Below, one piece after another: positions 22,063 to 64,000 of a stretch of DNA of 64,000 bases. How positions within the stretch are numbered: position 1 is the first letter of the stretch; the number at the start of each line of letters is the position of its first letter. The position numbers and the translations under genes are program-made. The notes under the pieces are model-generated. The model had not been told where the DNA came from. It searched no databases and saw nothing but the letters and a program-made list of their open reading frames with translations. Origin of the DNA: Arthrobacter sp. NtRootA1 (GTDB lineage Bacteria > Actinomycetota > Actinomycetes > Actinomycetales > Micrococcaceae); NCBI RefSeq assembly GCF_019976975.1, contig NZ_AP024630.1, positions 124,001 through 188,000 on the forward strand, read 5' to 3'.

Positions 22063-23298
22063 GTGCGAGTATTGATGATTTGTCCGGGGACGCGGGGAGA
22101 TGTCGCCCCCATAGCAGGGCTCGGCAGTCGTCTGCAAAAGCTGGGCTACGAGGTGTCCATCGCTGCCAACCCCGCGTACGCGCACCTCGTGGTCAGGTCC
22201 GGGTGTGAGTATCGTCCTCTTCCCGGCGACCTTGGCAGGATCATCAAGCGTGTCACACCGGGTGGAGCGAAGTCGTCCGGCGGCATGCTCACCACCTGGC
22301 GGGAGCTCAGCGAGTATATGGATCAAGCGGCCACCGGGACCCTGGCTGCGGTTGAAGCGGGTGCGGATGTCATCCTGGCCAATTCCGTGGCGCCATATGC
22401 CTACGACGTCGCTGAAGCGGTTGGAATTCCAGCGGTGGGCACGCATCTGCAGCCGGTGGAACCCAGCGCAGACTACCCTCCTGTGCTGCTGGGGTCCGCC
22501 CGGAACCTGGGTAGGCTGGGCAACCGGATTATTGGCGAGCGGGTCCTGGCCGGACCTGCCCCCTACGACGCCCCGAGTGCAAGGCTTCGCCACGAGTTGG
22601 GCCTGCCGAAGCTGTCACGCCAAGCTGCCGAGCGACGTCGAGCCAGGGCGAACAGCACGGTCCTCCATGGGATCAGCCCCACAGTTCTACGGCGACCGGC
22701 GGACTGGCGCCCTGGGTTGGTCATGGCGGGGTACTGGTGGCCGGTGCCCGAGCCGGAATGGAGTCCGTCCGCGGAACTGGAGGACTTTCTGTCCGCAGGC
22801 CCGCCCCCGGTTTTCGTTGGCTTTGGCAGCGGCGCTGCGCTGGACCCGGATTTCGTTCTTGAGGCCATCAGACGGGCGGGCGTCAGGGCGGTGCTGCAGG
22901 GTGCGGGGGACCTCTCGGACGATGATGCGATCGGCATCGGCGCAGTCCCGCACGAGTGGCTGTTTCCGAGGATGGCGGTAGTCGCGCACCATGCGGGCTC
23001 TGGCACCACCGCTGCCGGCCTCCGCGCTGGTGTGCCCACGGTCTGCGTCCCGGTGTATACGGACCAACCGCTGTGGGCTGCCCGGGTTGCTGCCCTCGGC
23101 GCAGGGCCCCGGCCGGTTCCCTACAAGGGGCTCACTGTTGAGCGATTGGCGTACGCCATCCGGGAAGCCGTCAGCACCCCGTCCTACGCAGCCCGGGCAA
23201 GAATCCTCGCAGCGCGGATCGGGAACGAAGACGGGGCCTCCGCCGTGCTCCGGACGCTGCGCAACCTCCCAACTGGGTCGCAGTTAAGCGCGTTTTGA
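22063..23298 (+). CDS. UGT-like glycosyltransferase (GT1/MGT type)
   Basis: A 411-residue GT-B-fold glycosyltransferase. It starts VRVLMICPGTRGDVAPIAGL, the loop of the acceptor domain in sterol and macrolide glycosyltransferases. The C-terminal donor-binding domain has VGFGSGAALDP and VVAHHAGSGTTAAGLRAGVP, the nucleotide-sugar signature, with PVYTDQPLWAARV after it. I chose GTG 22063 because AAGGAGGGG lies just upstream; an ATG 13 codons earlier has no such site. Donor and acceptor are unknown. The last eight residues (TGSQLSAF) and the stop are encoded by a palindromic repeat that seems to have invaded the 3' end. Confidence 0.85.
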   Translation: MRVLMICPGTRGDVAPIAGLGSRLQKLGYEVSIAANPAYAHLVVRSGCEYRPLPGDLGRIIKRVTPGGAKSSGGMLTTWRELSEYMDQAATGTLAAVEAGADVILANSVAPYAYDVAEAVGIPAVGTHLQPVEPSADYPPVLLGSARNLGRLGNRIIGERVLAGPAPYDAPSARLRHELGLPKLSRQAAERRRARANSTVLHGISPTVLRRPADWRPGLVMAGYWWPVPEPEWSPSAELEDFLSAGPPPVFVGFGSGAALDPDFVLEAIRRAGVRAVLQGAGDLSDDDAIGIGAVPHEWLFPRMAVVAHHAGSGTTAAGLRAGVPTVCVPVYTDQPLWAARVAALGAGPRPVPYKGLTVERLAYAIREAVSTPSYAARARILAARIGNEDGASAVLRTLRNLPTGSQLSAF

Positions 23299-23334
23299 GC
23301 CGCCTAAACGCGCTTAACTGCGACTCAGTTGGGT
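23268..23334. repeat. 67-bp palindromic repeat, family A, copy 1
   Basis: Begins CCCAACTGGGTCGCAGTTAA and ends TTAACTGCGACTCAGTTGGG T, with GCGCGTTTTGAG in the left arm and AAACGCGC in the right. It has the same length and plan as the element at 45425-45491. The outer and loop-proximal parts are the same; the middle of the arms differs but stays self-complementary. It overlaps the stop codon of the glycosyltransferase gene. Confidence 0.8.
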
Positions 23335-45424: not shown

Positions 45425-45491
45425 CCCAACTAAGTCGCATTTGTGCGCGTTTTGAGCCCTCAAAACGCGCACAAATGCGACTCAGTTGGGT
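45425..45491. repeat. 67-bp palindromic repeat, family A, copy 2
   Basis: Begins CCCAACTAAGTCGCATTTGT and ends ACAAATGCGACTCAGTTGGG T. The left arm has GCGCGTTTTGAG, the right CTCAAAACGCGC. It has the same length and plan as 23268-23334. On the minus strand it supplies the final Pro-Asn and the TGA stop of the PiT transporter gene. Confidence 0.85.
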
Positions 45492-59560: not shown

Positions 59561-61287
59561 GCTTCGAACTTCCCCGCCGGCAATACGCCGAGCTGTACGG
59601 CCCAACGACAGGTGACGCCATCCGTCTGGCAGACACCGAACTCTTCCTCGAAATCGAGAAGGACTACACGGTCTACGGGGAAGAAGTAGTCTTCGGCGGC
59701 GGCAAAGTAATCCGCGATGGCATGGGCCAAAACGGCCAGGCGACGCGCTCGGACGACATCCCGGACACCGTCATCACCAACGTCATCGTCCTGGACTACT
59801 CAGGAATCTATAAAGCCGATGTCGCCCTGAAGGACGGCCACATTTTCAAGATCGGCAAAGCGGGCAACCCCCAGATCATGGACGGCGTGGACATCGTGAT
59901 CGGTGCCAGCACGGAGATCATCGCCGGCGAACGGAAAATCCTCACAGCTGGCGGCATCGACACCCACATCCACTTCATTTCCCCCGAACAGGTTCCCACC
60001 GCACTCTGCAGCGGCGTCACCACGATGGTGGGCGGCGGCACCGGGCCTGCGGAAGGAACCAAAGCCACCACCATCACGCCCGGATCCTGGCATATCTCGC
60101 GGATGCTCCAGGCCGCCGAAGGGCTCCCCATCAACATCGGCCTGTTAGGTAAAGGCCATGCATCCGCCGTCGAGCCCCTCGCAGAGCAGATCCGCGCTGG
60201 TGCCGTAGGCCTGAAAGTCCATGAGGATTGGGGCTCCACCACGTCCTCCATCGACATGTCCCTGCGCGTGGCCGACGAATACGACGTCCAGGTGGCGATT
60301 CACACCGACACCCTCAACGAGTGCGGGTTCGTGGAAGACACCATCAATGCGATCGACGGCCGTGTGATCCACACCTTCCACACCGAGGGTGCCGGTGGCG
60401 GCCACGCGCCGGACATCATCAAGATTGCCGGGCTGCCCAACGTATTACCCGCGTCCACCAACCCCACGTTGCCGTACACCAAGAACACCATTGAAGAGCA
60501 CCTGGACATGCTCATGGTCTGCCACCACCTCAACCCGGACATCCCGGAAGACGTGGCCTTCGCAGACTCCCGCATCCGCGCGGAAACCATCGCAGCCGAG
60601 GACGTCCTGCACGATCTTGGCGTCTTCGCCATCACATCCTCGGACTCCCAGGCAATGGGCCGCGTTGGTGAAGTGATCACCAGGACCTGGCAAGTGGCTG
60701 ATGCCATGAAACGGCAACGCGGGGTACTTCAGGATCCGTCCGGCGCTGTGCATGGTGCTGCAGATTCGGACAACTTCCGCCTCAAGCGCTACGTCGCCAA
60801 ATACACCATCAACCCCGCCATCGCACAGGGCATGGCCGACGTCATCGGCTCCGTGGAAGAAGGGAAATTCGCCGACCTGGTGTTGTGGGACCCCGCCTTC
60901 TTTGGAGTGAAACCCGAACTCGTCATCAAAGGCGGACAGATCGCCTACGCGCTCATGGGCGACTCCAATGCCTCCATTCCCACGCCCCAGCCCCGCACCA
61001 TGCGGCCCATGTTCGCAACCTACGGCAAGGCACTCCAGCAGACGTCCATCACCTTCCTCTCCAAGGCAGCGATCGACGCCGGGGTGCCGGCCGAGCTTGG
61101 CCTCGAACGGATCATCCGGCCCGTCACCGGCATCAGGAACCTGCGCAAAGCCGACCTGAAGTTCAACGGCGAAACCCCGGACATCGTCGTCGACCCCGAA
61201 ACCTACAAGGTGACAGTGGACGGCGTCGAAGCCACCTGCGAACCCTCCGACGTGCTGCCCATGGCGCAGCGCTACCACCTCTTCTAA
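59557..61287 (+). CDS. ureC: Urease alpha (catalytic) subunit
   Basis: A 576-residue catalytic subunit, a TIM-barrel amidohydrolase with two nickel ions. The ligands are all present: His137 and His139 (DTHIHF), the carbamylated Lys220 (GLKVHEDWG), His249, His275 ([12 protein letters not shown]) and Asp363 ([10 protein letters not shown]). The mobile flap has Cys322-His323 in MVCHHLNPD. Numbering is 3 above that of the Klebsiella enzyme. It starts with GTG 59557 overlapping the ureB stop. All key residues are intact, so an active urease is expected. Confidence 0.98.
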
Positions 61288-61303: not shown

Positions 61304-61777
61304 GTGATCATCGAAAAAATCCTCGGCAACCTCCACGAACACCCCGACGCCTATGCCAGCCACCACAAAGAAAGAGTCGTCCTCCCCAGCGCACTGCTCG
61401 TCAAACGCATCCAACGCGTCACCACCGACCACGGCAAAGAACTCGGCATCCGCCTCCCCACCGGATCCGGCGACCTGCGCGACGGCGACATCCTCGCCGC
61501 CGACGACACCAACCTCATCGTCATCTCCGTGCTGCCCACCGACGTCCTCGTCATTGCCCCGCGGAGCATCCACGAAATGGGGGTCGTCGCACACTCCCTC
61601 GGCAACCGGCATCTGCAGGCACAGTTCTTCGACTCCCTGTCTGAGTACGGGGCCGACGTCATGGTGTGCCAGTATGACCACACCGTCGAGGACTATCTGA
61701 AGAGCGTCGGCGTCCCCTACGACAGGCAAGAGCGGGTCATGCCGGTGCCATTCCGCCATGCTGAGCATTCGCACTAA
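61304..61777 (+). CDS. ureE: Urease accessory protein UreE
   Basis: A 157-residue nickel-binding chaperone that supplies nickel to the UreDFG complex. An N-terminal peptide-binding domain ends near residue 70. The metal domain follows, with AHSLGNRHLQAQFFDSLSEY and VMVCQYDHTVEDYLKSVGVP. The C-terminus FRHAEHSH is a short His tail, much shorter than that of Klebsiella. GTG 61304 is 16 nt after ureC. Codons are C-rich. Confidence 0.93.
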   Translation: MIIEKILGNLHEHPDAYASHHKERVVLPSALLVKRIQRVTTDHGKELGIRLPTGSGDLRDGDILAADDTNLIVISVLPTDVLVIAPRSIHEMGVVAHSLGNRHLQAQFFDSLSEYGADVMVCQYDHTVEDYLKSVGVPYDRQERVMPVPFRHAEHSH

Positions 61778-61825: not shown

Positions 61826-61889
61826 GGCGGGTGATAGGGGCCGTGCCCGCTTCGCGATGCCCGCCACGCCGCGGCCCCTATCACCCGCC
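61826..61889. repeat. Palindromic repeat, family B, copy 1 (ureE-ureF gap)
   Basis: GGCGGGTGATAGGGGCC (61826-61842) is the exact complement of GGCCCCTATCACCCGCC (61873-61889), around the 30-nt loop 61843-61872 (GTGCCCGCTTCGCGATGCCC and so on). It occupies most of the 150 nt between ureE and ureF and would form a very strong hairpin in the operon mRNA. A copy with other arms is at 63264-63323. Confidence 0.85.
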
Positions 61890-61936
61890 TTCGCCTGTCG
61901 GGCCAGCGTCAGCCCTGCGGGCCAACGAGGTTGCCG

Positions 61937-62608
61937 ATGAGTGCGACATATCAGCTGGCTCTTCAACAATTGACGGACTCTGCGTTGCCTACGGGGGCGT
62001 TTGCTCATTCTTTGGGGTTTGAGGGCTACATCGAGCGTGGGCTTGTGGGGGATGCGGTTACGTTCAGCACTTGGCTCCATGCCTTCCTTGCGCAGCAGTT
62101 GACCTATTCGGATGGGTTGGCTGTGCGGTTCTTGTATGAGGGGGTGGATGTTGGTTTGTTGGATTCTGTTCTTTCTTCGCAGTTGTTGGCCCGGGAGGTG
62201 CGGGAGGTTTCTTTGAAAATGGGGGGACGGCTGCTGGAGATTGGTGGGGAGGTGTTTCCGTCGGCGGAGTTGGATCATTATCGGGATCTGGTTCGTGAGG
62301 GGGATGCTGTGGGGCATCAGCCCTTGGCCTTTGGCGTGATTGCTCGGTCATTGGGTGTTCCCTTTGAAGAGGCGCTTGCTGCGTATCTGTTTGCCACGGT
62401 TACTTCCCTGACGCAGAACGCCGTGCGCGCAATCCCGCTCGGACAGAACGCCGGGCAACGCGTACTTCGAGACGCGCACGACGCCGTTGCTGCCGCCGTC
62501 GAGGTTGTAGCACAACTGTGCTGGGACGACTTTGGGGCCGTGAGCCCCGGACTTGAAATTTCACAAATGCGGCACGAGCGGCAACGCGCCCGCATGTTCA
62601 TGAGCTAA
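61937..62608 (+). CDS. ureF: Urease accessory protein UreF
   Basis: A 223-residue all-helical accessory protein that works with UreD and UreG in urease activation. [20 protein letters not shown] is the family hallmark, with [20 protein letters not shown] and [15 protein letters not shown] at the end. ATG 61937 follows GAGG by 6 nt; a TTG two codons earlier is less likely. The first 150 codons or so are rich in TTG, GGG and GTT, unlike ureE and ureG; later codons return to the C-rich style. Confidence 0.94.
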
Positions 62609-62621
62609 CCCAGGAGGACAC

Positions 62622-63239
62622 ATGTCTGAACCCATCAAAATCGGCGTCGGGGGACCGGTCGGAGCCGGCAAGACACAACTCGTCGAGCGGATCACCCGGC
62701 ACATGAGCGGCGACATATCCATGGCCGCCATCACCAACGACATCTACACCATCGAAGACGCCAAAATCCTCGCGGCCAACGGCATCCTCCCCGAAGACCG
62801 CATCATCGGCGTCGAAACCGGCGGCTGCCCCCACACCGCAATCCGCGAAGACACCTCCATGAACACGGCAGCCATCGAAGAACTCAAAACCCGGCACCCC
62901 GACCTTCAAGTGATCTTCGTCGAATCCGGAGGAGACAACCTCTCAGCCACCTTCAGCCCCGAACTCGTCGACTTCTCCATCTACATCATCGACGTAGCCC
63001 AAGGCGAAAAAATCCCCCGCAAAGCCGGCCAAGGGATGATCAAATCCGACCTCTTCATCATCAACAAAACGGACCTCGCCCCCCACGTTGGAGCGGACCT
63101 CTCAGTGATGGAGCGGGACTCCAAGGAATTCCGCGGCAACAAGCCCTTCTGCTTCACGAACCTCAAAACGGACGAAGGGTTGGACGCCGTCGTGAACTGG
63201 ATCCGCCGGGACGTCCTGATGCTCGACTTGGCATCATGA
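62622..63239 (+). CDS. ureG: Urease accessory GTPase UreG
   Basis: A 205-residue SIMIBI-class GTPase that couples GTP hydrolysis to nickel delivery. The P-loop is [18 protein letters not shown], the nickel-binding Cys-Pro-His is in [17 protein letters not shown], and [17 protein letters not shown] and [14 protein letters not shown] are the G3/G4 regions. AGGAGG precedes ATG 62622. The stop overlaps the ureD start (ATGA). Confidence 0.96.
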
Positions 63240-64000
63240 GCGTTCATAGTCCGGCGGCCTCACCGGATGTAGGGGGCCGTGCCCGCTTCGCGATGCCCTC
63301 CACGCCGCGGCCCCCTTCATCCGCGTCCGCTGATCGCCCCGTGCGGGGGCGGCTTGAGCTTTGCGTCAGTGTGCGTGGCGGGAGGTCTGTTGCTTCTCGG
63401 CAGTTTCATGAGGGCGCTTTGAGAGTGTTGCGGCCGCACTATCTCGATCAGAGTGGGCAGGTTTGCTACGTCATCGTGAATCCTGGCGGGGCGTTTTTGG
63501 GGGCGGATTTGTTTGTTGTTGACGTGGAGGTCGAGGCTGGGGCGGATTTGTTGTTGACTACGCAGTCGGCTACGAAGGTTTATCGGACTCCGGGGTCGTT
63601 TGCTGAACAACGGATGCATGTGCGGCTGGGGGAGGGGGCGCGATTGGAGTTGTTGCCCGACCAGTTGATCGCCTACCGGGAGGCGAGCTATCGGCAGAAT
63701 TCGCGTATCAGTCTCCACCCGACGTCGAGCCTTGTCATGGCCGAGGTGGTCACGCCGGGGTGGTCGCCGGACGGCGGGGTGTTCCGGTACGAGGAGTTGC
63801 GGCTGCGCAATGAGATCCATGTGGAAATCGGGGAGGAGCCCCGGCTATTGGTTCTCGATAACCTCCTGATACGGCCGCCGCTGGGTGATGTAACTGGCTT
63901 GGGGTTCATGGAGGGTTTCAGCCACCTGGGATCGTTGGTGGTTGTTGATCCGAGGGTGGATCAGCGGCTTGCCGACGAGCTGCACCACGTGGCGGAGGAG
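63236..64000 (+). CDS. ureD: Urease accessory protein UreD, 5' part
   Basis: Open to the window end (255 codons visible). From residue 40 or so the protein is clearly UreD/Ure[61 protein letters not shown] and [20 protein letters not shown]. It is the scaffold that binds apo-urease for UreF-UreG. I chose ATG 63236 because it overlaps the ureG stop and the frame is open. Residues 10-29 are then encoded by the family B palindrome. A GTG at about 63340 is a possible later start. Codons are G/T-rich. Confidence 0.9.
63264..63323. repeat. Palindromic repeat, family B, copy 2 (inside ureD)
   Basis: CGGATGTAGGGGGCC (63264-63278) pairs with GGCCCCCTTCATCCG (63309-63323) with one mismatch. The 30-nt loop (63279-63308) differs from that of copy 1 at a single base. 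Relative to copy 1, both arms have changed together. The repeat is read in frame in ureD. Confidence 0.85.

Follow-up and report, generated by a model that had tools for sequence, protein, structure and literature searches.

Hairpins with a constant loop and variable arms in the Arthrobacter urease operon: probable members of a composite palindromic repeat family

What are the two hairpins that lie between genes of the urease operon of Arthrobacter sp. NtRootA1, and do they belong to that operon in any special sense? The window analysed here is a stretch of 64,000 nucleotides (contig NZ_AP024630.1, positions 124,001 to 188,000), and the hairpins occupy the ureE-ureF and ureG-ureD gaps near its end (Table 1). 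A preliminary description reported palindromes at 61826-61889 and 63264-63323 with loops one base apart. These coordinates are exact, and the loop measures 24 nt.

Table 1. The two hairpins and their neighbouring genes, in window positions.
Feature	Position	Strand	Evidence
ureE, upstream neighbour of copy 1	61304..61777	+	NCBIfam UreE 5.9e-85
Hairpin copy 1, 5' arm, ureE-ureF gap	61826..61845	+	20/20 pairs with 61870-61889
Hairpin copy 1, conserved 24-nt loop CCCGCTTCGCGATGCCCGCCACGC	61846..61869	+	loop conservation
Cassette point in relatives, mapped onto the loop of copy 1	after GTGCCCG (61849)	+	cassette junction, 58 nt
Hairpin copy 1, 3' arm	61870..61889	+	pairs with 61826-61845
ureF, downstream neighbour of copy 1	61937..62608	+	Pfam UreF 7.5e-40
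ureG, upstream neighbour of copy 2	62622..63239	+	NCBIfam ureG 4.8e-97
Hairpin copy 2, 5' arm, ureG-ureD gap	63264..63281	+	17/18 pairs with 63306-63323, one T.T
Hairpin copy 2, conserved 24-nt loop	63282..63305	+	one base differs from copy 1
Hairpin copy 2, 3' arm	63306..63323	+	pairs with 63264-63281
ureD, cut by the window end	63341..64000	+	Pfam UreD 5e-48

The pairs of copy 1 comprise 19 Watson-Crick pairs and one T.G, and those of copy 2 comprise 16 Watson-Crick pairs and one T.G, with one T.T mismatch. In both copies the T.G is the second pair counted from the loop. Two places in the window match the 24-base core, and 100 shuffles gave no match at all, so the loop match of both copies is not a chance event. 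RNA folding gave -61.7 kcal/mol (z -4.5) for a 101-nt stretch with copy 1 and -47.8 kcal/mol (z -2.4) for the stretch with copy 2. Comparison of the gap with relatives indicates that ureD starts at the GTG at 63341, 3' of copy 2; the alternative in-frame ATG at 63236, which overlaps the end of ureG, would place the hairpin inside the ureD reading frame. It had been claimed that both sides of the stem changed together wherever the two copies differ. Over the 18 shared pairs, four differ: three have changed on both sides, as claimed, but the fourth, the T.T mismatch, shows a change on a single side. Three compensated pairs out of four on two copies are thin, and the proof of covariation therefore rests on relatives.

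The hairpins are members of a dispersed family. The genome of the strain consists of one contig of 5.28 Mb and contains the loop core four times (E below 1e-5 for the four hairpin copies), two of them in ure. Of the remaining two, L003 is 3' of an amino-acid permease gene, facing mtlD, and L004 is between glpK and leuS. Of 206 genomes of the genus, 119 carry a 25-base loop pattern with at most one mismatch, with 0-4 hairpin copies listed per genome, and 41 of 61 carry a 22-base pattern with two mismatches. This genome search, of the kind proposed in the preliminary description, decides against the reading that the description had tied to a loop confined to the two ure sites, namely local copying within a single ure operon. 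The nearly identical loops of the window copies would suit such an event, but many species have copies in these two gaps and the loop also stands in unrelated gaps, so that local copying is refuted and scarcely credible as an explanation.

Using a covariance model built from 33 hairpins, we found members in 25 of 197 genomes and 9 of 32 genera of the family sample, and in 8 of 297 genomes of the order sample, seven of them in the same genus; both are undercounts because only 17-26 candidates were scored per genome. The weakest of these matches (L074-L077) retain little of the loop and are doubtful. Named records with a loop one base longer belong to Arthrobacter and Paenarthrobacter, and the plasmid matches were two large Arthrobacter sp. 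StoSoilB13 records. Viral contigs gave no exact match to one loop pattern, and a phage origin was set aside on this ground.

We next consider where the copies lie. The placement sample comprises 157 distinct copies, 155 of which stand beside at least one known neighbour, and the main neighbour genes were confirmed with family models. The ureE-ureF gap accounts for 49 copies, all 49 facing with the operon. Of the 40 copies between ureG and ureD, 10 are inverted and carry the same loop; grpE-dnaJ also holds 40, with 12 inverted. Nine copies lie between glpK and leuS and nine beside cysH, with cysD placed in two of these. The rest are scattered: two each at permease-mtlD, at sixA and between an aminotransferase and a response regulator gene, one each at gntP and infB-rbfA, and two unplaced. 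The sixA, gntP, aminotransferase and response regulator genes are labelled by eye from their translations. Model matches outside the loop pattern add the gaps argB-argD and rho-prfA.

This placement does not support the proposal that the two hairpins control the relative levels of UreE, UreF, UreG and UreD. The hairpin also occurs in unrelated operons, is inverted in a quarter of the ureG-ureD copies without a change of loop, and lacks a terminator tail. The comparison with the ure operons of relatives, which had also been suggested, revealed many gaps without a hairpin (26 of 83 at ureE-ureF, in a sample that is not random). A T-run directly follows the stem in only 2/89 ure, 2/40 dnaJ, 3/9 glpK and 1/19 other copies, and an intrinsic terminator was rejected given the rarity of T-runs in the ure copies.

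The grpE-dnaJ gaps that were read through in the genus have two hairpin positions, a + copy first and a - copy second, and the centre between them is not inverted; a block inversion of this gap was dropped for that reason. These positions carry a + copy, a - copy or a longer hairpin, which we read by alignment as a member of the family whose loop bears another, nested hairpin. We take the 12 "inverted" dnaJ copies to be second-position copies, not flips, as judged from the few gaps read through. In G130, from another genus of the family, the grpE-dnaJ gap holds one + and one - copy. A separate near-palindrome, TCTCGCCTAAGGTGAG, whose last bases vary, lies between both hairpin positions with constant orientation in the grpE-dnaJ gaps of L154, L159, L180, L227 and L232. 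Other palindromic repeats, of the GGTCGAGCYTGTCGAGACC type, were seen by eye in the ure gaps of L084, L085, L089, L098, L101 and L102, and by pattern in three ureE-ureF and two ureG-ureD gaps. They occur mostly where the hairpin is missing, and beside it in L098 and L102.

Pairing of the arms is kept across the family. Among 31 distinct aligned hairpins, 93.7% of 558 stem cells are paired and two-sided changes occur at 13 of the 18 stem pairs, which bears out the earlier view that hairpin folding has been preserved. The covariation score is 0.472, compared with 0.124 in shuffled alignments, a contrast that related sequences inflate, and with at most 0.197 when the stem is slid, a control that is somewhat flattering because the stem register was derived from the same sequences. 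In the 157 distinct copies, all positions of the 24-nt loop but four (54-73%) are at least 94% constant; this constancy is partly built in because the copies were found by loop patterns with two substitutions allowed. Within the 5' arm, a stretch of 12 bases occurs in 57 forms, most of them locus-specific and a few common to several loci. Fifteen of the 157 copies fall off the common stem register; those at glpK are among them and pair with the register shifted. One copy (L195) has a tandem duplication within the conserved loop, with GCTCCGCGGTGCCC repeated.

Covariation is what a cis-acting RNA hairpin would leave. Such a hairpin, carried in the ure, dnaJ, cys and glp transcripts, would set mRNA processing or stability, with a protein or RNase reading the loop. 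Its placement between co-directional genes in ure, grpE-dnaJ, glpK-leuS and cysH-cysD is consistent with this, as are the uniform orientation and the inheritance (below) of the ureE-ureF copies. A sense RNA under selection usually retains G-U pairs. A strict walk along 81 distinct stems, which ends at the first two adjacent mispairs and so leaves frayed ends uncounted, met 16 isolated mispairs in 1120 pairs; on the loop-sense strand one of the 16 is G.T and six are A.C, a difference that is not significant (p = 0.125). The 18 distinct stems of hairpins with a loop cassette (described below) have no isolated mispair in 256 pairs. Since a G-U excess is absent on the sense strand, a sense transcript is not pointed to. 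The inverted ureG-ureD copies with their unchanged loop, the ureE-ureF gaps that lack the hairpin in our non-random sample, and the rarity of T-runs, which speaks against an intrinsic terminator, also weigh against cis-acting RNA, and we regard this reading as rather unlikely. The preliminary description had left the choice between an RNA and a DNA transposition substrate. A sense RNA is not favoured by the single G-U among 16 mispairs, and for the DNA side no transposase of the REP type was found in the genome of the strain.

The same mispairs bear on a hairpin formed by the complementary strand, antisense to the operon at ureE-ureF, which could be a small antisense RNA or a strand-specific transposase substrate. 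An A.C mispair on the loop strand is a wobble pair on the complement. Such A.C mispairs lead G.T mispairs by 6 to 1 in the strict count and by 10 to 1 in a gapped walk. A loose count, which mixes gapped and repeated events, gave 38 to 5 in all and 38 to 4 where gene direction is known, the fifth G.T coming from the two elements whose direction is not known. An ungapped count (GT 14, AC 12) mixed in one-base slips and was left out of use. In addition, the inner bulge of the complementary strand reads CGGAG or CGAAG and might form G.A pairs. Rfam gave no match over the hairpins at gathering score, and the best relaxed match (E 1.8) was a microRNA model. Because the strict difference is not significant, an antisense RNA is kept only as a rival, and a quite unlikely one.

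The hairpin is inherited at ureE-ureF. On a gene tree of 89 distinct ureF sequences (about 670 nt, one gene), with loci partly chosen because the element is present, hairpin presence in this gap requires 11 changes among 83 rows, against a shuffled mean of 22.2 and minimum of 18. At ureG-ureD the tree signal is weak (12 changes among 58 rows; shuffled mean 15.0, minimum 10). The type of loop behaves differently. Short and long loops exchange 9 times at ureE-ureF, where 9 of 57 are long (shuffled 8.4), and 9 times among 41 at ureG-ureD (shuffled 9.1). Loop-type changes thus match the shuffled trees and presence does not: the hairpin stays at ureE-ureF, while the cassette in its loop turns over faster than the gene tree. 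Orientation at ureG-ureD also turns over, with 9 changes compared with 10.0 when shuffled.

Stems turn over too. In two pairs of orthologous gaps whose flanks are 95.8% and 93.3% identical (L054/L167 and L164/L184), whole stems differ and the loop is the same. Counted over row pairs, which are not independent, two-sided stem differences exceed one-sided ones in the identity bins 0.90 and 0.95, by 180 to 53 and by 18 to 8 respectively. The distant bins have no clear surplus (79 two-sided and 123 one-sided at 0.60; 101 and 91 at 0.65), probably through failure of the ungapped register there. From these alignments, the pattern among near relatives resembles an exchange of entire units more closely than gradual drift. 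Recombination from strain to strain could imitate part of the cassette turnover and of the stem swaps. None of the gaps compared showed a clean empty site with a duplicated target; L197 and L095 differ by an imprecise deletion, and the permease-mtlD gap was too variable among relatives to be aligned and yielded no empty site.

The nature of the loop exchange is clearest in two ureE-ureF gaps (L090 and L182), which have the same stem and nearly identical flanks and whose loops differ only by a cassette that replaces CT. We examined the ure gaps of 32 genomes chosen mainly for the absence of the short loop, 25 of which had a ureG match. Several of these gaps had the same arms with a longer loop, and others had no hairpin or another palindrome. 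In a sample of 20 long gaps, where L088 and L126 stand for a single genome, one junction pattern that requires GTGCCCG before the cassette fits 19. The cassette is 58 nt long in 18 of the 19, and the 19th was captured by a looser end. In the 20th (L098, ureG-ureD), the cassette begins at the same point by eye.

The cassette is a hairpin in itself, with matched variable arms. Repeats related to it are dispersed in 48 of 61 genomes of the genus, sometimes in tandem, and the genome of NtRootA1 has no match to the cassette-repeat pattern. In all four genomes where both ure cassettes were captured, the two are 93, 97, 98 and 100% alike, and likeness between genomes averages 92% at the same or at different loci. 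Of 21 cassette repeats not marked as lying in the present hairpin, four fall within other arms of at least 10 bases, compared with 1.4% of 660 control positions, in a set that is biased because it was chosen by a pattern taken from hairpin loops. Outside the hairpin, the cassette repeat stands in tandem at 54-60 nt spacing in L119 and L128, with pairs also in G012, G045 and G049.

A loop-directed system is a further possible reading, which we advance tentatively. The hairpins, with their freely varying but matched arms, would be att-like landing pads, and a trans-acting enzyme would insert and remove small, non-coding hairpin cassettes at a fixed point of the loop. The cassettes would be the 58-nt unit and the other hairpin nested in grpE-dnaJ, giving palindromes within palindromes.

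Among known repeats, the closest likeness is to two classes. As the cited sections of PMC3733652 describe them, REP elements form dimers in inverted pairs, and their families differ in stem and loop. The Arthrobacter hairpins are likewise short extragenic palindromes between genes, and the + and - copies in the G130 gap form an inverted pair as in REP/BIME elements. There is no consistent tag: GTAG is found in the 5' flank of 17 and CGTC in that of 13 of 157 copies, and the reversed tags in the 3' flank of 4 and 6. No RAYT gene (Y1 transposase, PF01797) was found in the genome of the strain, and among 61 genomes of the genus only G032 has one, a genome without a loop match; RAYT was rejected as the mover. 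In the table of PMC3733652, REP stems measure 5-13 or 8-9 bp and the loops 2-20 or 4-5 nt, and the 18-20 pairs and 24-nt loop seen here lie outside these ranges; the exchangeable loop cassette is a further difference from REP/BIME. Without a consistent tag or a RAYT gene in the genome of the strain, and with stem and loop off range, membership in REP proper fails.

The cited parts of PMC3049150 describe the BOX elements of Streptococcus pneumoniae as composite stem-loop repeats in which the number of interior boxB modules varies. The boxB modules fold largely apart from the rest of BOX, and insertions of BOX elements and other repeats within each other occur; the authors read them as parasitic. 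The 58-nt cassette, present or absent inside the hairpin and repeated in tandem elsewhere, resembles boxB by analogy only. BOX has end modules, boxA and boxC, with models of their own, whereas the Arthrobacter arms vary and covary at most of their pairs, BOX being compared by description. As regards MITEs, which have fixed terminal inverted repeats and a target-site duplication, the gaps compared had no precise empty site. The sections of PMC12306157 cited here report that the RepRanger genome-wide palindrome search lists candidates in Arthrobacter livingstonensis. The 24-nt loop falls outside its default search because the default maximum loop is 11 nt. In literature searches that covered mostly open-access papers, none of the titles and abstract openings listed described the Arthrobacter hairpin family.

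Taking these results together, we consider it somewhat more probable than not that the ure hairpins are a composite, REP/BOX-like palindromic repeat of the Arthrobacter group, maintained at the level of DNA and not specific to urease. A putative trans-acting nuclease or recombinase would act on single-stranded or cruciform DNA, recognising the hairpin or its loop in that state, and it would move the cassette into and out of the loop. The arms may stay matched by recopying of one arm from the other through template switching, or, alternatively, unpaired copies may go unrecognised. Effects on the ure mRNA would be incidental. Against the composite-repeat reading stand our failure to find an enzyme that moves the hairpin or the cassette, the lack of a clean empty site in the gaps compared, the weak tree signal of presence at ureG-ureD, the low copy number, and a loop that is stricter than an inert repeat needs, as judged on copies found by loop pattern. 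High copy number is weak as a REP criterion, since many REP families have 20-100 units or fewer according to the cited sections of PMC3733652.

If the composite-repeat reading is correct, the REP/BOX class would gain a repeat that is identified by its loop, not its arms, and that hosts a smaller repeat at a fixed point. The natural before-and-after pairs, with the same flanks and stem and a different loop, could be used to find the enzyme that moves the cassette and also to test the persistence of perfect palindromes. The family carries a warning as well: covariation alone is no proof of a functional RNA, as the stems covary here and wobble pairs are nearly absent.

Two further observations were made in the window. 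The Rfam model 5_ureB_sRNA (RF02514) matches the - strand at 59712-60001, antisense to the beginning of ureC, with 99.6 bits, and this match may only reflect the conserved ureC coding sequence. A second palindrome family of other sequence (CCCAACT..GTCGCA...) is present at 23268-23334 and 45425-45491. Its two copies are 84% alike, with arms of 28 and 33 nt that are 96-97% complementary.
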